DNA of 64,000 bases from an uncultured Bacilli bacterium (GTDB lineage: Bacteria > Bacillota_I > Bacilli_A > RFN20 > CAG-449), in the NCBI GenBank assembly GCA_947632435.1, contig CANRPC010000009.1, forward strand, positions 1 to 64,000. Reading direction: 5' to 3'. Under the pieces are notes generated by a model. The model did not search any database, was not told the DNA's origin, and saw only the letters and a program-made list of their open reading frames with translations. Each line of letters begins with the position of its first letter. Position 1 is the stretch's first letter. Position numbers and translations under genes: made by a program. Below are positions 15,031-56,467 of the stretch, one piece after another.

Positions 15031-15231
15031 ATGCAAGAAAGAAAAAATAATACTAAAGTAACATGTAGACCATGTAAAGAAGAAGGAAATTGGGAAATTG
15101 AAGCCCCAAATGGAAAAGTATTAAAAAAACATTATGCAACAAAAGAAGCATGTGTAAAAGCAGGTAAACAATATGCTCAAGAATGTGGCGCAGAATTATA
15201 TATCTGTGATTTTGATTCTGACGAGCGTTAA
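15031..15231 (+). CDS. DUF2188-like small protein
   Basis: 66 residues from ATG 15031. The sequence has WEIEAPNGKVLKKHYATKEA followed by KAGKQYAQECGAELYICD, matching the DUF2188 layout: a beta hairpin, then a helix beginning 'TKeeA' and a final 'gaeLiI' strand. There are three to four Cys (CRPC, C, C), unusual for the family. AAAGGA at 15015-15020 is well spaced for ATG 15031 and too close to the in-frame ATG at 15022. Function unknown. Confidence 0.6.
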   Translation: MQERKNNTKVTCRPCKEEGNWEIEAPNGKVLKKHYATKEACVKAGKQYAQECGAELYICDFDSDER

Positions 15232-15278
15232 TTAAAATTAGCTAATATAAAATAGCTTTTTAAAAATTATAATTTTAT

Positions 15279-15322
15279 TTGTGATATTTTAACCTCTTGA
15301 TTTATAATAAAATTAAGAGGTT
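15279..15322 (+). promoter_or_regulatory. Promoter and inverted repeat covering the nnrD ribosome binding site
   Basis: TTGTGA (15279-15284) and TATAAT (15303-15308) with an 18-base spacer make a plausible promoter. AACCTCTT (15291-15298) and AAGAGGTT (15315-15322) are perfect 8-base arms, and the GAGG of the second arm is the only Shine-Dalgarno sequence of nnrD. If transcription starts upstream, the hairpin would hide the ribosome binding site. If it starts at this promoter, the repeat could only act as DNA. Confidence 0.4.
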
Positions 15323-15327
15323 TTAAT

Positions 15328-16158
15328 ATGGAAATCTTAAAAAAAAGAGATGAAAAAGCTAATAAAGGAACGTATGGAAAAGTAATTATTATAGGTGGTT
15401 CTTTGCCTTATATAGGATCTGTTCTTTTAGCTAGTTTAGGTGCAAGTAAAAGTGGAGTTGGTTATGTTGCATTAGGAATTGAAAAAAAACTTTATCCATA
15501 TGTGGCAGGTAAAATTTATGAAACAATATATGAAATACTATCTTCGTTTTCTGATATTAAAACTTTAAAAAAAATTGTTAATAAATATAATTCTATTGTG
15601 TTTGGTAATGGTATTGAAAACAATAAAAAAACTAAAAAAGCCTTGGAATTTATATTAAATAATTATGATAAAAAATTATTAATAGATGCTACGGGATTAA
15701 GCATTTTAAAATCATTAAACATAAATATTTTACTTAAAACAAAAGCTAAAGTTATTTTAACTCCGCATTTGAAAGAATTTTCTTCTTTATTTGACATTGA
15801 TATTACTAATAAAAATGCACTTGATTTAACAAATGAAGCAAAAAAAATAGCTAGAAAGTATCACATAACATTAGTTTTAAAAGATTTTAATAGTTATATA
15901 ACAAATGGTGATAAATTTTATGTTGTTACTTCAGGGAATGCGGGTTTAGCACATGCTGGAAGCGGTGATGTTCTTGCTGGATTTATTGGAGGTCTTTTGG
16001 CGTTTTGCGATAGTGATAATGTTGATATAGCATTTTTTGGACATCATATTTTTTCATTAAGTGCTAAATATTTAGCAAAAGATATATCATTACATTCTAT
16101 GAGTCCTGTTGAAGTATGCAATCAAATCGGTTATGTTTTAAAAAAGGAGAAATTGTAA
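15328..16158 (+). CDS. nnrD: ADP-dependent NAD(P)H-hydrate dehydratase (YjeF C-terminal/ribokinase fold)
   Basis: 276 residues, the usual size of the stand-alone dehydratase. It has the N-terminal KGTYGKVIIIGGS motif, the Gly-rich VFGNGIENNKKT segment, ILTPHLKEFSSLF, and the nucleotide/catalytic motif GNAGLAHAGSGDVLAGFIGG. It repairs hydrated NAD(P)H. The epimerase half (YjeF N-domain) seen in many bacterial fusions is absent here. Its stop shares a base with the rdgB start (TAATG), so the two repair genes form an operon of metabolite housekeeping. Confidence 0.9.
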   Translation: MEILKKRDEKANKGTYGKVIIIGGSLPYIGSVLLASLGASKSGVGYVALGIEKKLYPYVAGKIYETIYEILSSFSDIKTLKKIVNKYNSIVFGNGIENNKKTKKALEFILNNYDKKLLIDATGLSILKSLNINILLKTKAKVILTPHLKEFSSLFDIDITNKNALDLTNEAKKIARKYHITLVLKDFNSYITNGDKFYVVTSGNAGLAHAGSGDVLAGFIGGLLAFCDSDNVDIAFFGHHIFSLSAKYLAKDISLHSMSPVEVCNQIGYVLKKEKL

Positions 16159-16754
16159 TGTTAAAAAAAATAATTGTTGCCTCAAATAATCAACATAAAA
16201 TTGAGGAAATAAAAAAAATTTTTTCACCATATAATGTTGAAGTTTTATCTTTAAATGAAGCAAATCTTAAGTCTAATCCTGAAGAAAATGGTCTAACATT
16301 TCAAGATAATGCTTTTATTAAAGCAAAAGCCATAAAAGAACAAACTAATGATGTTATTTTAAGTGATGATTCAGGACTTTGTGTACATGCTTTAAATAAT
16401 TTCCCTGCAACATATTCTTCACGTTTTATGGAGGGAAGACCATATAGTGAAAAATGGCAATATATAAATGACAAATTAAAGGAAAAAGATGATAAAAGTG
16501 CTCATTTTTCTTGTGTAATTTGTGTTTTAAATTTAGAAGATAAACCACTTTTTTTTGAAGGTAAAGTTTATGGAGAAATTGTTTTACCAAAAGGAAATTC
16601 AGGGTTTGGATATGACCCAATTTTTTATGTCAAAGAAAAAAATAAAACATTTGGTGAAATGTTAGAAAAAGAAAAAAATGACATTTCACATCGTGGTAAA
16701 GCTTTAAATTTATTAATTGATTATTTATTAAAAAATGAATACATTAAAAAGTAA
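16158..16754 (+). CDS. rdgB: Non-canonical purine NTP pyrophosphatase (RdgB/HAM1)
   Basis: 198 residues from ATG 16158, the family length. Motifs: IIVASNNQHKIEEIKKIF at the N-terminus, DDSGLCVHALNNFPATYSSR in the active site, GFGYDPIFYV, and SHRGKAL at the C-terminus. It hydrolyses dITP, ITP and XTP to keep them out of DNA and RNA. AAAGGAG just upstream fixes the start at 16158; an earlier in-frame ATG at 16116 lies inside nnrD. Its stop lies shortly before the RpiB-family gene. Confidence 0.93.
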   Translation: MLKKIIVASNNQHKIEEIKKIFSPYNVEVLSLNEANLKSNPEENGLTFQDNAFIKAKAIKEQTNDVILSDDSGLCVHALNNFPATYSSRFMEGRPYSEKWQYINDKLKEKDDKSAHFSCVICVLNLEDKPLFFEGKVYGEIVLPKGNSGFGYDPIFYVKEKNKTFGEMLEKEKNDISHRGKALNLLIDYLLKNEYIKK

Positions 16755-16779
16755 TTTTATAAAGGAAAAGGAGGAGAAA

Positions 16780-17415
16780 ATGAAAATTGCATTAATGATG
16801 GAAAATTCACAAGCTCAAAAAAATGAGCTAGTTTATCAAACATTAAAAAAGGTTGTAGAACCTTTAGGACACGAGGTTGTAAATTATGGTATGTATGGTA
16901 AGCAACAAGAAGAACAATTGACATATGTTCAATTAGGTTTAATGGCTAGTTTAGTCCTATCCACTCATGCCGCAGATTATGTTATTACAGGATGTGGAAC
17001 AGGCGAAGGAGCTATGCTTGCTTGTAATTCATTCCCTAATGTATTATGTGGTCATATTGTTGATCCTTCAGATGCATATCTTTTTGCGCAAGTTAATAAT
17101 GGAAATGCAATAGCACTTCCTTTTGCTAAAGGATTCGGATGGGGAGGAGAGATTAATTTAGAATACATATTTGAAAAATTATTTTCTTCTGAAGGTGGAA
17201 TGGGATATCCAAAAGAAAGAGCTATTCCTGAACAAAAGAATAAAAAAATTTTAGATGAAGTTAAAAAAATTACTTATAGGCCTTTAAAAGAGATACTACA
17301 AAACATAGATAAATCTTTATTACAAGGTATTTTAAATTGTGAAGGATTTAAAAAGAATTTTTATAAAGATTGTAAAGATTTAGAATTATTAGAATTTTTA
17401 AAAATAATTAAATAA
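16780..17415 (+). CDS. RpiB/LacA/LacB-family sugar-phosphate isomerase
   Basis: 211 residues from ATG 16780, chosen because AAAGGAAAAGGAGGAG lies directly upstream. The core has the family fold marks: MENSQAQKNELVYQTLKK near the N-terminus and ADYVITGCGTGEGAMLACN, where the Cys and Gly-Thr-Gly loop form the active site. It is longer than ribose-5-phosphate isomerase B (~150 residues), with a 60-residue C-terminal extension. The substrate could be ribose-5-phosphate or another sugar phosphate; I cannot tell. It is in the same direction as rdgB, 25 bases downstream. Confidence 0.85.
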   Translation: MKIALMMENSQAQKNELVYQTLKKVVEPLGHEVVNYGMYGKQQEEQLTYVQLGLMASLVLSTHAADYVITGCGTGEGAMLACNSFPNVLCGHIVDPSDAYLFAQVNNGNAIALPFAKGFGWGGEINLEYIFEKLFSSEGGMGYPKERAIPEQKNKKILDEVKKITYRPLKEILQNIDKSLLQGILNCEGFKKNFYKDCKDLELLEFLKIIK

Positions 17416-17417
17416 GC

Positions 17418-17756
17418 ATGAAAATTATAAGAAGTATAATATTTTTCTTTAGTGAAATTGATAAAGAAAAATCTCTTGAAATTGCTAAAAATTTAAAAGG
17501 ATATGTTGATGTTGAAGATGGAAAAAAAGAAAATCCACATATTGATATTAAACAATTTCAAAATATCATTATTGTTTCAAAACATGATTACGAATTTACA
17601 AGAATTATTAATAAATATTTTTTAAATAATTCGGAAGCAAAAATATATGTTATTTCTAATATAAATAAAATTACTAGTAATTATTTTGCTAATTTTTTCT
17701 TATATGATATTTCTTCTTTTCATATAGCAGAAATTATAAATGAAGATAATCAGTAA
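17418..17756 (+). CDS. Hypothetical protein
   Basis: 112 residues, starting two bases after the RpiB-family stop and so in the same operon. It is hydrophobic at the N-terminus (MKIIRSIIFFFSEI), with an alternating beta/alpha pattern afterwards, including IIIVSKHDYEF and IYVISNINKI. It resembles a small Rossmann-like or receiver-like fold without known active-site residues. It has no clear membrane helix. I do not recognise the family. Confidence 0.5.
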   Translation: MKIIRSIIFFFSEIDKEKSLEIAKNLKGYVDVEDGKKENPHIDIKQFQNIIIVSKHDYEFTRIINKYFLNNSEAKIYVISNINKITSNYFANFFLYDISSFHIAEIINEDNQ

Positions 17757-47782: not shown

Positions 47783-49543
47783 ATGAAAAAAAATATTGCT
47801 TTGATACTAATGCTTTTGTTGGAATTTCTTTTAGTTGTTTTTCTTACAATACCTCAGTTAAAAAGTATTTCACTAGATATATTTCCTTTTTTAAGCAATT
47901 TATGGAACGCTTTAAAAATAAGTGCGAATAATTTTGCTTCTTTAATAAGATTAAATAATTTACTTTCTATGTTTCCTCATAGATTGACTTTAGCGGTTTC
48001 ATTAATTATTTTAAATTTAATTTTTATTATAATTTATGAAATTATAGCTTCTATAATTGTTTTTGTTATTCGTCGAAATCATAAGAAAAATTTAATTGCT
48101 AATAAATTGGATACTTATGAATTGACCGAAGAAGAAAAAGCACGTTTTTCTTGGAAATTATATCAAAAAAAGTTTTCGTGGTTAGGACTTTTTTCTTTTA
48201 TAATTCCATCACTTTTAATTTTATTTTTTATTATTGTAAGATTTGATAAAAAAGTTTGTTTACAAGATGAATATAATATAGGATTTACTTCTTTTTACAC
48301 AAATAATTTAGAACCATTTATAAATTCTCTTGTTCCTCAATTTAATAATTTAATATTAAGATTTATAAATAAATATATTTCACTTATGGAAGGTGTTACA
48401 AGAGTACTTTCTGTGAAATGGGTTGAATATATTTTTATTGGTATTGCAATTACTGTTTTTTATTTTATTTGGTTTTTCATTGTTTGGATTTTGAAAAAAA
48501 TATTCCATAAATCAAGTGCTAAAAGAAGAGCAAGAAGAAGCAAAAAGAAATATATTGCTAAAATGGAAAAGAGTGAATTAAAGGCCAGAAAAGCTGCAGG
48601 TGAACGAATATCTTCCAAAAATGATGCTAAAAATATTTCTTCTTTAGGTGATTATTATCAAGATGCTTCAGTTATTTCTTTAAGAGGTAATTCGAATTTA
48701 ATTTCATATTCAGATGTAAAAAGTTTTGATTACATTGAAGATATTTCTTCTGGTGTTATTGATTTAGGAATAGCCTCGACAGGTGAAGAAGAGGATAAAG
48801 ATCCAATCGAAAAGAAAATACCTGTATTTGTTGGTGAAGAAGATATTGATATTATTCTTGAAAAAGAACCTATAATTGAAACAATTGAAGAAGAAAATGA
48901 AGATGCTATTGATGAAATGGAACCATTTTTTGAAAAATATATTCCTGAAAGAATTGATTTTGCAAGTTTAGATGATTCTTTATTAATTAAACAAATAAAT
49001 GTCGTGGATGAGCAAGGATATTATAAAGAAAAAGATGTAATTGCCATTAAAGATTTTAAAGAAGAAATTATTCCTCATGAAAAAGAAGAACCTGAAGAAA
49101 TAAAAGAAGAAACTAAAGTAGAAAAAGAAGAACCTTTGATTGAGGAAAAAAATGAAGAAAATAAAAAAGAATCTCAAGAGATCATTGATATTGAAGAAAA
49201 TCCCCAAAATATTGTAAAAGAGGAAATAAAAAGTGATTCTAAAGATAAACCTAAAACAATTAAATTAGTTCAACCAATTAATGAAAAAGAAACAGTAAAT
49301 AACTTAGAAGAAATAAAAGAAGAAAAAATTATTAATTTAAAAGAATTTACTCCAAAAAAAATAAAAAAGAAACCGATAAAACCAATTTCTATTAATTCAA
49401 ATTATAATAATGAAGATAGATTTAAAGATCCAAGAAGTAAATATTTTGTTTTTGAAAAAAAAGATATTAATAAAGAAAAAAAAGAAAAAGAAACTCTTAA
49501 AAAAAGACAATTAATAAAAAGAAAAAAGAGTATTAAAAAATAA
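47783..49543 (+). CDS. Membrane protein with long acidic/Lys-rich cytoplasmic tail
   Basis: 586 residues. Four membrane segments are at about 4-27, 70-94, 132-153 and 212-236, followed by a strongly basic stretch (SSAKRRARRSKKKYIAKM). A middle part to about 400 is acidic, then a ~170-residue low-complexity region is rich in Glu, Lys and Ile (EEPEEIKEETKVEKEEP). The tail ends in a Lys-rich stretch. The layout suggests a membrane scaffold or a disordered linker, perhaps for cell shape, division or nucleic-acid contact; no known domain is visible. AAAGGAG precedes the start. Confidence 0.6.
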   Translation: MKKNIALILMLLLEFLLVVFLTIPQLKSISLDIFPFLSNLWNALKISANNFASLIRLNNLLSMFPHRLTLAVSLIILNLIFIIIYEIIASIIVFVIRRNHKKNLIANKLDTYELTEEEKARFSWKLYQKKFSWLGLFSFIIPSLLILFFIIVRFDKKVCLQDEYNIGFTSFYTNNLEPFINSLVPQFNNLILRFINKYISLMEGVTRVLSVKWVEYIFIGIAITVFYFIWFFIVWILKKIFHKSSAKRRARRSKKKYIAKMEKSELKARKAAGERISSKNDAKNISSLGDYYQDASVISLRGNSNLISYSDVKSFDYIEDISSGVIDLGIASTGEEEDKDPIEKKIPVFVGEEDIDIILEKEPIIETIEEENEDAIDEMEPFFEKYIPERIDFASLDDSLLIKQINVVDEQGYYKEKDVIAIKDFKEEIIPHEKEEPEEIKEETKVEKEEPLIEEKNEENKKESQEIIDIEENPQNIVKEEIKSDSKDKPKTIKLVQPINEKETVNNLEEIKEEKIINLKEFTPKKIKKKPIKPISINSNYNNEDRFKDPRSKYFVFEKKDINKEKKEKETLKKRQLIKRKKSIKK

Positions 49544-49555
49544 AAAACAATATAA

Positions 49556-49626
49556 AAAAGGGTTGTAAGAGCAGTTTTTATCATAGTTAACTATGTAAAA
49601 CTTTATCTTTACAGCCCTTTATTTTT
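49556..49626. terminator. Bidirectional terminator with perfect central palindrome
   Basis: Outer arms AAAGGGTTGTAAGA and TCTTTACAGCCCTTT pair with G-U. Inside, AGTTTT pairs with AAAACT, and the tip is the perfect palindrome CATAGTTAACTATG (49582-49595). T-runs on both strands (TTATTTTTT, and A-rich 49549-49558) fit termination of the converging genes on either side. Confidence 0.75.
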
Positions 49627-50078
49627 TACTTTTCAAATAGTTCCATATATATGACATATACTGATGCAATAATAACAAATTTATTTGTTTCTGATTCTTT
49701 AACTAATAAATAGTTATCTGCCGCGGCTAATAATATTCCATCAAATACTTTATCATGCCATAATGATGAATCGGTGAAGGCACAGTAAACTTTAACACGG
49801 GTTCCAATTTTTTCAGATATTAAATTTTTAAAATTTTCATAAAATTTTTTAACTCCTGCTATACCTTCTTCAATGCGAATGTAACTATCTGGTACATAAC
49901 CATCTTGAACTGAAGTATCACTATCTTTTGCTACTTTAAATGCAGATGAATTTTCTTCAGTGAATGGAGGTGGACTAGTCATATTGTTGCCATTCTGAAA
50001 TGGGGAATTATTCATTGGAGTATTCTGATTAGGATACATTGCTCCATAATAATTTGGTGGGGGATTCATTCTATCCAT
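49626..50078 (-). CDS. gerQ: GerQ-like protein
   Basis: 150 residues. The first ~45 are Pro/Asn/Met-rich and look disordered (PPPNYYGAMYPNQNTPMNNS). Residues ~60-150 follow the GerQ pattern: GYVPDSYIRIEEGI, then a strand-loop LWHDKVFDGILLAAADNYLL and IIASVYVIYMELFE, matching 'W..KiF.G.i..A..d.iil.....g....l.m.yldYi.fee'. In Bacillus, GerQ is a spore coat protein needed for germination and cross-linked by transglutaminase. Here the spore role is uncertain. GAAAGGAAAGG lies about 12 bases upstream. Confidence 0.6.
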   Translation of the reverse strand: MDRMNPPPNYYGAMYPNQNTPMNNSPFQNGNNMTSPPPFTEENSSAFKVAKDSDTSVQDGYVPDSYIRIEEGIAGVKKFYENFKNLISEKIGTRVKVYCAFTDSSLWHDKVFDGILLAAADNYLLVKESETNKFVIIASVYVIYMELFEK

Positions 50079-50154: not shown

Positions 50155-50190
50155 ATAAAAAAATCCTTCTATAAAAAGAAGGACTTTTTT
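50155..50190 (-). terminator. Rho-independent terminator of the pckA-oad-birA operon
   Basis: On the minus strand, GTCCTTCT and AGAAGGAT pair around TTTTAT and are followed by TTTTTTT. It directly follows the stop of bioY-birA. Confidence 0.8.
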
Positions 50191-51463
50191 AAGATAAATG
50201 GAAAGTTATTTCTCCAGAATAGATATTTTTTTCTTGATTGTTTAATAAGACCTTTAAAGAATTATCACTATTTATTTGTAAAACTTTCACTAATACTTTA
50301 ATACCTAGATATTCGGCGTATACAGTTTTATTTTTCAAATAATTATATTCATTTGCAATTTGTAAATAATTAATATTATTATTTTTTATTTGAGTTAATA
50401 TATTATTTAGTTCTTTATAAACATAACGTTTAACTCTATTTATTGAAATTTTTTTATTTGTTTCTTCAAAATAAGAAGTAGCAATATCTTTTAAAGAATT
50501 ATCAATTTTAGTGTTTATATTGATTCCTATTCCAACTACAAGACATAATATTTCTTTTTCTGAAATACTTTCAAGAAGTATACCACATATTTTTTTATTT
50601 CCTACATAAACATCATTTGGCCATTTAATTGATACGTTTTTTAATTTCAATTTAATTAATGATTTATAAACTGCGACTGCGGAAGCAAGAGAAATAGAGG
50701 TGTATTTTTCTATTAATTCTTTATCTTTGATAAGAACAGAAAACATTAAATTTTCTTTTTCATTGCTTTCCCATTTGCGATTCATTCTACCATGACCATT
50801 TGTTTGATAGTCAGCGGAAACAAATGTTAAATTTTTTAGATTTTGATAGTTATTTTTCAAATATGTTGATGTAGAATCAATATTTTTAAAGTGTAAATTT
50901 ATTGTCTCTTTATCAAGATATTTTGCAATCTTTTTATAAAGTAAAATAGCTAAGAAAATTTTAATAATATCAAAAGGTATGTATGGTACAATAAATAACC
51001 ATAATAAAGTTAAACTATCATAAGACTTATTGCTTAAAATATTTAAGGAAATATATCCATGTATATATCCTATTAAGTATAATAATATTAAACTAATAAA
51101 ACTAAATAAAATAGTATAAATATATTGAAAATTTGGTTTCTTTTTTATTAAGAATTGATTTAATTTTAACATTAAGAGCACTATATAAAATCCATATACG
51201 AATCCAAATGTTGGACTTAATAAATAAGAAAATCCTCCTCCAAAAGAAGCAAAGACAGGAATTCCAATTAATCCCATTAATATATAAGTAGTTAAAATCA
51301 GTAAACTGTGTTTTAAATTACATACATATCCAATAATATAAATTAATATTAATTGAAGGGTAAATTTAGTTAATCCAATGGTTATTGAAATTTGAGCACT
51401 AATAATTAATAACGCTAATAAAAGGGCATCTAAAGTAAGTGATTTTAAATGCTTTTTTGACAT
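50189..51463 (-). CDS. BioY biotin transporter fused to BirA biotin-protein ligase
   Basis: 424 residues in two parts. Residues 1-185 are a BioY-type ECF S-component with six membrane segments and the motifs GIPVFASFGGGFSYLLSPTF, GFVYGF and YIPFDIIK. Residues about 190-424 are a group I (no HTH) biotin-protein ligase: DSTSTYLKNN, the biotinyl-AMP loop TNGHGRMNRKW (cf. GRGRxGR), KWPNDVYVGNKKICGILLE, and the C-terminal SH3-like domain. It would import biotin and attach it to the carrier protein encoded two genes upstream. It is the last gene of the pckA-oad operon, with a 3-base gap after oadB. BirA domain recognition is firm; BioY rests on motif and topology. Confidence 0.88.
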   Translation of the reverse strand: MSKKHLKSLTLDALLLALLIISAQISITIGLTKFTLQLILIYIIGYVCNLKHSLLILTTYILMGLIGIPVFASFGGGFSYLLSPTFGFVYGFYIVLLMLKLNQFLIKKKPNFQYIYTILFSFISLILLYLIGYIHGYISLNILSNKSYDSLTLLWLFIVPYIPFDIIKIFLAILLYKKIAKYLDKETINLHFKNIDSTSTYLKNNYQNLKNLTFVSADYQTNGHGRMNRKWESNEKENLMFSVLIKDKELIEKYTSISLASAVAVYKSLIKLKLKNVSIKWPNDVYVGNKKICGILLESISEKEILCLVVGIGININTKIDNSLKDIATSYFEETNKKISINRVKRYVYKELNNILTQIKNNNINYLQIANEYNYLKNKTVYAEYLGIKVLVKVLQINSDNSLKVLLNNQEKNIYSGEITFHLS

Positions 51464-51466
51464 TTT

Positions 51467-52639
51467 TTATCCAATCATTGATAAAAGAATACCAGCAGCA
51501 ACAGCACTACCTATAACACCAGCAACATTTGGTCCCATAGCGTGCATTAATAAATAGTTATCTGGATCCTCTTTTTGACCCATTTTGTGAACTACTCTAG
51601 CTGCCATAGGAACTGCAGATACTCCAGCAGCACCAATCATTGGATTGACTTTTCCTTTTGTGACTTTACACATGATTTTACCACCCATTAATCCACTTAT
51701 CGCGGCAATAATAAATGCGAAAATTCCTAAACCAAAAATCATTAATGTTTCAGGTTGTAAAAATTTAGTACCAATTGCAGTAGCACCGACTGATAATCCT
51801 AATAAAATAGTACAAATGTATAAAAGAGCATTAGATGCTGTTTGTACAAGATTTGGAACCACTCCTGTTTCTTTGATTAAGTTACCAAACATTAAGCATC
51901 CAATTAATGGAGTACATGAAGGAACTAATACAGTACAAACTACCATAACAATGATTGGAAATAAAATTTTTTGTTTTTTGGTAACTTGTTTTGATTCTTC
52001 CATCCTAATTAAACGTTCTTTTTTAGTAGTGCATAATTTGATAATTGGAGGGAAAATAACAGGCACTAAAGCCATATAAGAATATGCAGCTAAAGCAATA
52101 CCTGCTGTTAAGTCAGGACTTGCAAGTTTATTAGAAACTAAGATTGCTGTAGGACCATCAGCACCACCAATAATACCTATACCAGCAGCATCACCAACAG
52201 TATAATTCATACCTAATTTTGCTAAGGCAAGAGTTCCTAGAAATGCAGCAAAGATTCCAATTTGAGCTGCAGCTCCTAAAATCATAGTTTTTTTATTGGA
52301 AATTAATGGTCCAAAATCGGTAGTCGCGCCTATACCGATAAATATAAGACATGGATATAATTCACATTCTACACCCAAATGAAGATATCCTAATAATCCT
52401 CTACTTAAAATTGTTCCATCTTCAGCATAAGTAATATAAATTTCAGGAAATATATTTACTAATATGATTCCAATGGCAATAGGAATTAATAAATAAGGTT
52501 CATATCCTTTTTTAATGGCTAAGAATAAGAATATACATCCAATAATAATCATAACAAGATTCATCCATCCACTTCCATTAAAGAAAGAAACGATGCCTGT
52601 TTGATTAAAAAAATCTTCAATTAAATCTAAAAAATTCAT
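51467..52639 (-). CDS. oadB: Oxaloacetate decarboxylase, Na+-pumping beta subunit
   Basis: 390 residues with about nine to eleven membrane segments. It has the family motifs LLGYLHLGVECELYPCLIFI, IGATTDFGPLI and GIGIIGGADGPTAILVSNKL; the Asp in GGADGPT corresponds to the Na+-binding site of OadB. It couples decarboxylation of carboxybiotin to export of Na+. It lies between the biotin carrier and bioY-birA genes with gaps of 2-3 bases. Confidence 0.95.
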   Translation of the reverse strand: MNFLDLIEDFFNQTGIVSFFNGSGWMNLVMIIIGCIFLFLAIKKGYEPYLLIPIAIGIILVNIFPEIYITYAEDGTILSRGLLGYLHLGVECELYPCLIFIGIGATTDFGPLISNKKTMILGAAAQIGIFAAFLGTLALAKLGMNYTVGDAAGIGIIGGADGPTAILVSNKLASPDLTAGIALAAYSYMALVPVIFPPIIKLCTTKKERLIRMEESKQVTKKQKILFPIIVMVVCTVLVPSCTPLIGCLMFGNLIKETGVVPNLVQTASNALLYICTILLGLSVGATAIGTKFLQPETLMIFGLGIFAFIIAAISGLMGGKIMCKVTKGKVNPMIGAAGVSAVPMAARVVHKMGQKEDPDNYLLMHAMGPNVAGVIGSAVAAGILLSMIG

Positions 52640-52641
52640 AA

Positions 52642-52986
52642 TTACCCAATGATAATTAAAGGATCTTTATTAGCAACTTGGGCGCCTTTGCTAACTTTAA
52701 TTTCTTTAACAACTCCAGATGCGGAAGCATTTACTTCATTTTCTAATTTCATTGCTTCAATAATACAAATAACATCACCTTTATTAACTTTTTGACCAAC
52801 ATTGACTTTAATATCAAGTACTTTTCCACCAATTGGAGCAAGAACTACTGTTTCATTTCCACTTTGATTATTTGTATTAGATTGTTGAGTTGCAACTGGT
52901 GTTTCAATTGACCCTTTTGTTTCCTCTACAGCTTCTAATTCAACTTCGTAAACTTTTCCGTTTACTTTTACTTTATATTTCTTCAT
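52642..52986 (-). CDS. Biotin carboxyl carrier protein of the decarboxylase
   Basis: 114 residues. The N-terminal strand (KKYKVKVNGKVYEVELEAVE) is followed by a Gln/Asn/Thr-rich linker at about 30-45 and a biotinyl domain with IIEAMKLENEV, whose Lys carries biotin (family EAMKM/L). It shuttles CO2 from the carboxyltransferase (oadA) to the membrane subunit. In many species this domain is fused to OadA; here it is separate. RBS AAGGAG. Confidence 0.92.
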   Translation of the reverse strand: MKKYKVKVNGKVYEVELEAVEETKGSIETPVATQQSNTNNQSGNETVVLAPIGGKVLDIKVNVGQKVNKGDVICIIEAMKLENEVNASASGVVKEIKVSKGAQVANKDPLIIIG

Positions 52987-53004: not shown

Positions 53005-53355
53005 TTATTTAATTTCTTTAATGCTTATAACTCTAACATCTTTTTTTATTTCTTGACGATAATCTATAGTAGCTACTAAAACAGCAGTTAACATATCATC
53101 ATCTTTGATTTCTACTAAGTTAGAATCTTCTTTTTTTTCAAATGCAGAAACTTTTTGATTTTGCTCCTGCTTTTTTGCGGCATCAATTTCAGCCTTCATT
53201 TCAAATAAGCCATTTAGTTTAAAAATTAATGTTGTTATGCCGATTATAAGAATTAAAACCGCAAATACCATTAAAATAGATACAATCGCATATAAAGCTC
53301 CATTTTTGAGCCCCATTTTTTCAGTTTTATCGACAGCAAAAAATAATAATTGCAT
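53005..53355 (-). CDS. oadG: Oxaloacetate decarboxylase gamma subunit
   Basis: 116 residues with a single membrane helix near 23-45 and a soluble C-terminal tail rich in Lys/Glu with DDMLTAVLVATIDYRQEI, typical of OadG/MmdD. It holds the OadA and OadB parts together. It is placed 2 bases after oadA and 18 bases before the carrier gene. Confidence 0.8.
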   Translation of the reverse strand: MQLLFFAVDKTEKMGLKNGALYAIVSILMVFAVLILIIGITTLIFKLNGLFEMKAEIDAAKKQEQNQKVSAFEKKEDSNLVEIKDDDMLTAVLVATIDYRQEIKKDVRVISIKEIK

Positions 53356-53357
53356 GA

Positions 53358-54752
53358 TTATTTACCTCCCAAAATGACATTGAATTCTTCAACTTCATCT
53401 TCTTCAATTGGTTTTGGATTATATTTTTTTGTTAAAAATTCTGTAGCAACTTTTTCAAATAAAGCAAGTGATAAAACATCTTCATCAGAACGTGCAATAT
53501 CTTTATATTTTTCTTTCAAATCTTCAAATTCAGGTTTTAATAAATCTGCAGGCCTACATGTGATAATTTCATCATCACCAACAATTTGTTTTAAAATTTT
53601 TTCATCTATTGGTGCAGGAGCTTTACCATATTTTCCATGACAATAATCTCTAATTTCATTTGGTACCATTTTATATCTAACACCAGTTAAGACATTAAAC
53701 ACTGCTTGAGTTCCAACCATTTGTGATAAAGGTGTAACAAGAGGAGGATATCCTAAATCCTTTCTTACTGCTGGAACTTCTTTTAAAACTTCATCATATT
53801 TATCCATAGCACCTTGTGCTTTTAATTGACTCATAAGATTTGATAGCATTCCACCAGGTACTTGATATGTCAAAATATTTGGATTTGTAGATAATGCTTT
53901 AGGATTTAATAAACCATTTGCTAAATATTTATTTTTAATAGCATCCATTATTGGTTCAGCTTCGTGTAAAGCATCAATGTTTAAATTTGGATCGTATTTT
54001 GTTCCTTTTAAAGCTACATTAAATGCTTGTGTTGAAGGTTGTGCTGTTCCTCCACATAGTGGAGCAAGTGATGTATCGATAATATCACATCCAGCTTCAA
54101 TAGCTGCCATATATGTCATTTCACATATTCCACCAGTACAATGTGAATGTAATTCAATCGGTAATTTAATGCTTTGTTTTAATGCAGAAATTAATTTTTT
54201 TGCATCTTCGGGAGTTAAAACACCAGCCATATCTTTAATGCAAAGAGAATCAGCACCTAGTTTTTCAACTTCTTTTGCAAGATTAACATAATATTCAATT
54301 GTATGAATAGGTGAAGTCGTATAACTTAATGCAATTTGACATTCACCACCATATTTTTTAGTTGATATTACTGCTTGTTTTAAGTTTCGAATATCATTTA
54401 ATGCATCAAAAACTCTAATTATATCAATACCATTTTCGATTGATTTTTGACAAAATTTATCAACGACATCATCAGAATAATGACGATATCCTAGAATATT
54501 CTGTCCTCTAAATAACATTTGTAGTTTGGTATGTTTACAAACCGCTCTTACTTTTCTTAATCTTTCCCAAGGATCTTCATTTAAAAATCTGAGGCAAGCA
54601 TCAAAAGTTGCTCCGCCCCAAACTTCTAAAGCATGATAACCAGCTTTGTCTAATTTCTCTGCTAAAGAAACGACTTCATCGGTTGTCATACGAGTAGCAA
54701 AGAGAGATTGGTGTCCATCGCGCAAACCAGTTTCAACGATTTTAACGCCCAT
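53358..54752 (-). CDS. oadA: Oxaloacetate decarboxylase alpha subunit, carboxyltransferase
   Basis: 464 residues. TIM-barrel motifs ETGLRDGHQSLFATRM (metal Asp), GATFDACLRFLNEDPWERLR, the conserved Lys in SLCIKDMAGVL (carbamate-forming) and HSHCTGG (metal His pair). The conserved PYC_OADA domain follows. No C-terminal biotinyl domain, which is encoded separately. It moves the carboxyl group from oxaloacetate to biotin. Second in the operon after pckA. Confidence 0.94.
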   Translation of the reverse strand: MGVKIVETGLRDGHQSLFATRMTTDEVVSLAEKLDKAGYHALEVWGGATFDACLRFLNEDPWERLRKVRAVCKHTKLQMLFRGQNILGYRHYSDDVVDKFCQKSIENGIDIIRVFDALNDIRNLKQAVISTKKYGGECQIALSYTTSPIHTIEYYVNLAKEVEKLGADSLCIKDMAGVLTPEDAKKLISALKQSIKLPIELHSHCTGGICEMTYMAAIEAGCDIIDTSLAPLCGGTAQPSTQAFNVALKGTKYDPNLNIDALHEAEPIMDAIKNKYLANGLLNPKALSTNPNILTYQVPGGMLSNLMSQLKAQGAMDKYDEVLKEVPAVRKDLGYPPLVTPLSQMVGTQAVFNVLTGVRYKMVPNEIRDYCHGKYGKAPAPIDEKILKQIVGDDEIITCRPADLLKPEFEDLKEKYKDIARSDEDVLSLALFEKVATEFLTKKYNPKPIEEDEVEEFNVILGGK

Positions 54753-54778: not shown

Positions 54779-56467
54779 TTATGCTTTTAAAGAATTTGCT
54801 TCAGCAACAACCTTTTCAATTGCTTCTAGAGCATCATCAGGTAATTTGTCATAACCACCTTTTTCGATAGCACATTTTTTAACAAAGTTAACTCTATCTT
54901 GCATACGTGCTTTTAATTGTTCAACGTAATTTGCATCTTTTAAATTTGGTTCAAAACCTTCCCATTTTAAGATTTCTATATCGGAGAATGGTCCCCATTT
55001 TTCAAATTTTGCTGTGCCATCTACAACGGCTTCAATAACACCTAAAGTATCTTCTTTTTGAACTTTTTTACCCATAAAGTCACCAGTGTTAATGATGTAG
55101 CAAGCAACGTTTTTCTCCGCAACTAATTTTTTAAATTTGCTGTAATCATTTGCTAAAGGATAAGTTCTAAATGGGTTAGCATATGGTTCAACAACTAAAG
55201 CATTTGGATCAACTCCTGGAGCTAATCTTTCAGCAGAAGAACGTTTTGTAGCAAGTGTAGCACCCATAACTGCTGCTAATGAAGCACCTTTTAGTTTAAC
55301 AATTGGAGGAATTGTAGGATCTTTCATAATCCAGAAAATAGCATTTACTGGAGATTCTAATTTATCTACTCTATTAGGTGACCATAATTTTGATTTAATA
55401 GCACGACCATTGCCATTTCTAATATCTTCAGTAACTAAAACGATATTACCATTTTCATCTTGTGTACAAGAACAATTTTGAACTGTTAATAAGTATTTGT
55501 TATCTGGACATCCAGTTGGATAATCATTTGTTTTATCAAAGTAAGATGGTTCAAGTGCTACAGAAGCACAAGTATCTGTATTAATAACGAATGCATCATC
55601 ATGTAAAACTAAAATATCGTATTTTCCACCATGTTTAGCATGAGTAATCGTGGATTTACCACTTCCTGATAATCCATATACTGAGGCAACGAATTTTCTT
55701 CCATCTTTAAGAGTATATTCTTTTTGTCCTCCATGACAAGAAGCGTAACCATTTCTATTAGCTATAGCCCAAGCAATAGTTAAAGTTCCTTTTTTATGTT
55801 CTCCGAAATATCTCATACCAAGAATTGCTGCACAATTTGTTTCGGTAGAAAAATAAGCTAAGCATTTTCCATCACAAACATCTGTTTGATTTGTACCAAC
55901 CCAATCTGGATCAGAGAAAATATAAATATCAGGTTCTTTTCCGTTTCCAATTGGTTTAGAATTTTTGTACATATTTAAATATGTGTCATTAATATATTGG
56001 AAATTTAACAACCAGTTATAAAGAATATTTTCTTGTCCTTCTGGTATCAATAAATGAGCTTTAACCATAAATTCAGGATCAAGACCAATATAAGCTTCTG
56101 CATGATACATTTTTTTATAACGTGTATCGTAGACTGCATCCATTAAAATTTTGTCTAATCTATCTTGATTAACTCCAGGTTGTCCTTGAATTCTTCTAGC
56201 TGCTGCGTAACGTCCTGTAATAGATCCATCATTAAATAATAAGACTTTTGCATCTCTATCAAGACCGACAGCCTCAGGATTATAAACTGGCATATCAGTT
56301 ACTACTGTTCCTGGAGAATTTTTTGCTAAATTATAAGCTTCTTTTAATGAATTTACTTTGACAACATTGTTTCCATAAAATGCTGCTTCAATAATTGAAC
56401 GAGTTTTAGCAAAACCAGGTTTTCCTTTCCCAATTTCATTAATTGGATAAAATGCTTTTGTAGACAT
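54779..56467 (-). CDS. pckA: Phosphoenolpyruvate carboxykinase (ATP)
   Basis: 562 residues. Kinase-1a P-loop YGLSGSGKSTITHAKHGG near 266-283, the metal/ATP motif LHDDAFVIN, and RSSAERLAPGV further on. It interconverts PEP plus CO2 plus ADP with oxaloacetate plus ATP. As first gene of an operon with oxaloacetate decarboxylase, it probably works in the PEP-to-oxaloacetate direction in this organism, making ATP. AAGGAGG sits 7 bases before ATG. The promoter is at about 56586-56614. Confidence 0.92.
   Translation of the reverse strand: MSTKAFYPINEIGKGKPGFAKTRSIIEAAFYGNNVVKVNSLKEAYNLAKNSPGTVVTDMPVYNPEAVGLDRDAKVLLFNDGSITGRYAAARRIQGQPGVNQDRLDKILMDAVYDTRYKKMYHAEAYIGLDPEFMVKAHLLIPEGQENILYNWLLNFQYINDTYLNMYKNSKPIGNGKEPDIYIFSDPDWVGTNQTDVCDGKCLAYFSTETNCAAILGMRYFGEHKKGTLTIAWAIANRNGYASCHGGQKEYTLKDGRKFVASVYGLSGSGKSTITHAKHGGKYDILVLHDDAFVINTDTCASVALEPSYFDKTNDYPTGCPDNKYLLTVQNCSCTQDENGNIVLVTEDIRNGNGRAIKSKLWSPNRVDKLESPVNAIFWIMKDPTIPPIVKLKGASLAAVMGATLATKRSSAERLAPGVDPNALVVEPYANPFRTYPLANDYSKFKKLVAEKNVACYIINTGDFMGKKVQKEDTLGVIEAVVDGTAKFEKWGPFSDIEILKWEGFEPNLKDANYVEQLKARMQDRVNFVKKCAIEKGGYDKLPDDALEAIEKVVAEANSLKA

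Follow-up and report, generated by a model that had tools for sequence, protein, structure and literature searches.

The last gene of a predicted Na+-pumping oxaloacetate decarboxylase (oad) operon in the window (the whole 64,000-nucleotide stretch of DNA analysed here) joins a BioY biotin S-component and a biotin protein ligase (BPL) in one reading frame, and its product is probably a bifunctional membrane protein, biotin importer and ligase in a single chain, that is energised by an ECF module and serves one carrier protein. The sequence basis for this reading consists of the fusion itself, its conservation in other species, the motifs of both halves, the single client domain, the presence of an ECF module and the absence of BioB; from these we infer ECF-dependent transport, both activities, and any benefit of a fixed stoichiometry or place. 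The fusion gene and its parts are as follows.

50189..51463, minus strand: bioY::bpl fusion gene, 424 codons from an ATG start, a single open frame without an internal stop
50900..51463, minus strand: BioY S-component part, residues 1-188 (PF02632, phmmer to the BioY structure 4dve, AlphaFold2 helices)
50192..50899, minus strand: biotin protein ligase part, residues 189-424, without an HTH (TIGR00121, Foldseek)
50879..50935, minus strand: junction, residues 177-195, where the helix-6 extension ends and passes into ligase strand 1 (AlphaFold2); its codons are read

Both halves match their families well above the cut-offs. Pfam places BioY (PF02632) at residues 32-180 (E 1.6e-24; 86.9 bits, cut-off 25) and BPL (PF03099) at residues 193-315 (E 3.1e-22), and the NCBIfam model TIGR00121 (birA_ligase) is matched over its full length at residues 191-420 (144 bits, cut-off 83), giving domain extents of approximately 1-188 for BioY and 189-422 for the ligase. 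The C-terminus of the BioY part is expected to lie in the cytoplasm. No HTH family was found in the protein at E 0.001 in Pfam or NCBIfam; BioY occupies its place, and the ligase is of the group I type.

Relatives were sought in 279 genomes of the same order. Full-length fusions (residues 2-422, open frame, no stop) are encoded in nine further species, all of one genus (g29) in another family, at 43-47% identity, so that ten species including that of the window carry bioY::bpl. A separate contig scan, which gave no match with the single protein as query, matched named records of these relatives with an alignment as query; they are metagenome-assembled genomes (MAGs), mainly from rumen and one from horse faeces, labelled Bacilli, Bacillales or Erysipelotrichaceae. 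Across the fusions, the spacing between the helix-6 aspartate and the S-T motif of the ligase is constant to one residue. In eight of the nine g29 fusion species, junction residues 171-192 have a pS of 0.43, a pN of 0.07 and a dN/dS of 0.11, similar to the dN/dS of the two domains (0.075 and 0.096), which indicates that the junction codons are read as protein and are under purifying selection. A sequencing or assembly error that joined two genes, with a hidden stop near residue 185, as the first-pass annotation had allowed, is refuted by the nine other fused assemblies, each from a different species, together with the conserved length and selected codons of the junction, and its probability is negligible, even though such artefacts do occur, as in a ligase-BioY frame of 548 aa (L110) whose usual ligase end, GEVTIRW and stop, lies in another frame, probably through a frameshift, and which was excluded from the count. 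Another apparent fusion ('open frame 458', G528/L167) has stops between the genes and is no fusion.

The fusion gene closes a six-gene operon on the minus strand, in the order PEPCK, oadA, oadG, biotin carrier, oadB, bioY::bpl.

54779..56467, minus strand: divergent phosphoenolpyruvate carboxykinase (PEPCK), first gene of the operon (PF01293, 67.9 bits, Pfam cut-off 26.5); conserved in sister operons
53358..54752, minus strand: oadA/pycB carboxyltransferase without a carrier domain (PF00682, PF02436; PRK12331 above cut-off)
53005..53355, minus strand: oadG-like small membrane subunit (PF04277, E 6.5e-10)
52642..52986, minus strand: biotin carrier protein, the client (PF00364, E 2.8e-18)
52747..52749, minus strand: lysine of the EAMKL biotinylation motif, K80 of the carrier in translation, assigned by the established motif
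51467..52639, minus strand: oadB, membrane carboxybiotin decarboxylase, the Na+ pump subunit (PF03977, E 2.7e-143; TIGR01109 above cut-off)
50164..50183, no strand assigned: terminator-like hairpin and T run (on the minus strand) just past the fusion stop; such sites occur in the region at chance number

Three bases separate the oadB stop from the start codon of the fusion, and the same six-gene operon is present in the nine g29 fusion species wherever the contig is long enough. A search of the whole window against Rfam returned only tmRNA and the L10 leader, with no riboswitch or RNA control at the operon. The arrangement agrees with what the first-pass annotation had described: BioY and ligase in a single chain (both domains matched in one 424-aa frame, and in nine further fusions), a ligase without an HTH, and a position within the operon of its client, an oad operon with the carrier gene two genes upstream and oadB as the sole gene between them. 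The operon shares oadA, oadG, the carrier and oadB with known operons for Na+-pumping oxaloacetate decarboxylase and differs from them in ending with a gene for biotin import and ligation and in beginning with the divergent PEPCK. Together, PEPCK and the Na+-pumping decarboxylase could convert PEP to pyruvate with a yield of ATP and export of Na+, bypassing pyruvate kinase. The PEPCK itself falls far under the NCBIfam cut-offs. Downstream of the operon, the window encodes a GerQ-like spore coat protein (49626-50078; PF09671; the genome is of 1.7 Mb and its lineage one of small genomes) and a 586-aa protein (47783-49543) that has hydrophobic segments near its N-terminus, a long tail rich in charge and no match in Pfam or NCBIfam.

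The genome (1.68 Mb in 42 contigs, 98% complete) contains one BioY/ligase and one biotin-carrier domain, that of the oad operon, as its only PF00364 match, a count from a 42-contig assembly that could miss a second carrier or ligase; no biotin synthase BioB was found above cut-off. That no other biotin-carrier domain was found in the genome strengthens the earlier proposal that this carrier is the client of the fusion. Each of the other fusion genomes also has one biotin-carrier domain. Neither carrier nor BioY/ligase is found in the two genomes of the same genus or in the nearest genera. Of the 279 genomes in the order, 73 have both carrier and BioY/ligase, six have BioY/ligase alone, five the carrier domain alone and 195 neither, an odds ratio for co-occurrence of 474 that is uncorrected for relatedness and comes from a carrier profile that also matches lipoyl domains. 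The plain pattern in these counts is of biotin genes gained and lost as one module. The oad operon thus appears to be a biotin module that is complete in itself and has a single client, the Na+-pumping oxaloacetate decarboxylase, which looks like the only biotin-using enzyme of the cell. Such a biotin economy would be minimal, with one client, one ligase, one importer and one operon, in an organism whose nearest relatives lack all three.

Residues characteristic of both families are retained in the fusion.

51413..51427, minus strand: AxxxA motif, A13-LLL-A17, in helix 1, the EcfT docking motif (fusion alignment; common among BioY relatives)
50960..50971, minus strand: D165-IIK168 in helix 6, aligned with the D-x-x-K of 4dve
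50612..50626, minus strand: KWPND motif of the ligase, residues 280-284 (K, W, N and D in 58 of 58 ligase rows)

In the alignment of the ten fusions, A13, A17, D165 and K168 are invariant. Of the 47 aligned BioY rows, all have D165 and 33 have K168, in an alignment whose BioY-only rows are misaligned beyond residue ~172. We take these two positions to be the biotin-site Asp and Lys of helix 6. The BioY loop at residues ~74-92 is unlike that of the Lactococcus structure in the alignment to 4dve, and some contacts of that structure are not kept. The ligase part keeps the G-x-GR, KWPND and GIGxNxN stretches. These features are the ground for predicting that the BioY part binds and transports biotin and that the ligase part biotinylates the carrier. 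An AlphaFold2 model of the fusion, built from a 95-row alignment, has a mean pLDDT of 93.8 and a pTM of 0.75; in it helix 6 (residues 159-188) runs directly into ligase strand 1 (189-195), where the weakest block has a pLDDT of 72, and enters the ligase without a flexible linker. Foldseek aligns the ligase part of the model with solved group I BPLs of Aquifex and Pyrococcus at TM scores of 0.84-0.90 by target length.

With regard to the energy source, the first-pass annotation had noted that ECF genes are lacking nearby and had left a choice between a shared and a solitary BioY. The operon indeed contains no ECF genes, and a genome search revealed one complete ecfA-ecfA'-ecfT set (contig C2 of G000, 15095-17433), away from the fusion, adjoining truA and without an S-component beside the ecfA-ecfA'-ecfT-truA cluster. 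Nine of the ten fusion genomes encode a single EcfT; the remaining one is an assembly of 78% completeness. Given this cluster without its own S-component, the single EcfT and the AxxxA motif kept in all ten fusions, the shared (group II) mode of energising is the most likely one. The genome does not fit the solitary mode, defined by the lack of an ECF module, as the module is present, and solitary transport need not be invoked. The AxxxA motif has a documented role in EcfT docking (PMC11109136).

In the mechanism that we favour, the BioY part would bind extracellular biotin, dock via helix 1 on the single shared EcfA-EcfA'-EcfT module, topple and release biotin into the cell. Tethered to the membrane through the helix-6 extension, the ligase part would make biotinyl-AMP and biotinylate the sole carrier, encoded in the same operon, for use by the Na+-pumping oxaloacetate decarboxylase. 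The operon would be an autonomous biotin module that lineages acquire and lose whole, and bioY and bpl would have fused where they already adjoined or overlapped. The prevailing view is that S-components topple within the membrane. For related receptors with the S-component fold, it has been proposed that a soluble extension at the C-terminus limits this motion (PMC11109136), and it should not be taken for granted that a BioY fused rigidly to an enzyme supports ECF-driven transport. The presence of a folded enzyme on helix 6 of an apparently ECF-docking S-component in ten species bears on the toppling model, and the recurrent fusion offers a test of how vitamin importers move.

The strongest alternative, a serious contender that falls somewhat short of even chances, is that overlapping neighbours in an operon merged neutrally and that the halves act as if apart, with no gain from hand-off or localisation. 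Among sister lineages with the same operon, bioY and bpl are separate genes whose order varies and which may overlap or have a single in-frame stop between them. The position of the fusion is taken by a ligase alone in G408, G555 and G036, by a ligase followed by BioY in G235, G244 and G079, by a ligase with a convergent BioY in G029, and by BioY followed by a ligase, one in-frame TAA apart, in G452 and G564, where an apparent readthrough was set aside as two separate genes since the ligase ATG follows the stop. Two g29 species are unfused, and a fusion in the reverse order in G364 also fits a neutral merger. Against this reading stand the junction length, constant to one residue despite 45% identity, and the low junction dN/dS, although the latter would also be expected if the halves were useful. 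Furthermore, the window gene has no ATG, GTG or TTG near the junction that is accompanied by a ribosome-binding site, which makes separate production of the ligase half unlikely.

The probable bifunctional protein has a plausible precursor state in G149 (L057, 7008-8298): there the same oad operon ends in a bioY and a bpl that overlap out of frame with each other. The BioY tree places the fused sequences in one clade (90/71) with G149 alongside (93/90); the ligase tree neither supports nor rejects such a clade (AU p 0.42) and so does not discriminate between one and two origins of the forward fusion. The identities within the window operon form a mosaic, with PEPCK (85%) and OadA (80%) closest to G408, from another family (f26), and OadB closest to the g29 fusion operons, at mostly 83-85% identity, a pattern that points to exchange between lineages. 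The reverse-order fusion in G364 (L184, 2388-3440) is an open ligase-BioY frame of ~350 aa; its ligase is short at the C-terminus, and the BioY start and a ribosome-binding site remain; the sibling G319 has two stops at the ligase-BioY junction.

Biotin ligases bind biotin tightly enough to work without channelling. Direct channelling, as proposed in the first-pass annotation, in which the toppled BioY would pass biotin to the ligase site of the same chain before it mixes with the cytosol, is for that reason unlikely, the more so as relatives manage with separate proteins; the short rigid connection in the AlphaFold2 model, the scarcity of the vitamin and the single client are in its favour. 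Less probable still is transport by BioY alone, with adenylation by the attached ligase trapping biotin and the ATP spent by the ligase driving uptake: some solitary BioY proteins and S-components do transport without an ECF module (PMC4820897; PMC11109136) and here biotin would be trapped by an enzyme of the very same chain, yet the genome has a complete ECF module and the fusions conserve AxxxA. We give equally little credence to a variant in which the fused ligase would pull biotin inward in addition to the ECF ATPases, the S-component either toppling with a 27-kDa enzyme attached or transporting without full toppling; if true, the substrate of an importer would be captured by covalent use within the same chain. 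Finally, it is very doubtful that BioY has given up transport and serves the ligase as a membrane anchor or as a sensor of biotin. S-component-like folds with soluble C-terminal domains do act as receptors (PMC11109136), and the helix-6 extension would suit that role, but the fusion keeps AxxxA and the D/K residues whereas receptors lose AxxxA (PMC11109136), and its BioY is the only one found in a genome without BioB and with no other known biotin importer.

Several known systems resemble parts of the probable importer-ligase. Like the BioY S-component of 4dve, it has the PF02632 match, the S-component fold, AxxxA, the helix-6 D-x-x-K and a shared ECF module in the genome, and it differs in bearing a complete enzyme C-terminally via an extended helix 6. 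With the HTH-less group I BPLs (TIGR00121; Aquifex 2eay/3efr, Pyrococcus 1wnl) it shares the full-length match, the motifs, the lack of an HTH and the fold, whereas its ligase would be membrane-bound, with BioY at the N-terminal spot that the DNA-binding domain fills in group II enzymes. In the PycA-biotin ligase fusion of the archaeon Methanocella (PMC11237513) the ligase likewise has a biotin-pathway protein as its fusion partner, and the genes are often together, but the partner there is the client carboxylase subunit and here it is the importer. Sensors of the S-component fold with cytosolic domains (5TMR, PMC11109136) also carry a soluble C-terminal domain via helix 6; in contrast to the fusion, which keeps AxxxA and bears a metabolic enzyme, they are signalling proteins without AxxxA. 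A search of open-licence papers returned no report of a BioY-ligase fusion; 'BioY-BirA' in PMC4877710 denotes a pathway and no fusion. The halves and the operon appear to be of known kinds and their fused arrangement to be recurrent and new, a term that we use short of a firm claim that it is unreported. A different BioY fusion was seen in an uncultured Clostridia MAG (CAMQSU010000006.1; L121, 7905-9605), where a 567-aa frame joins BioY (PF02632, residues 54-199) to the biotin synthase BioB (TIGR00433, 346.9 bits) with its BATS domain.
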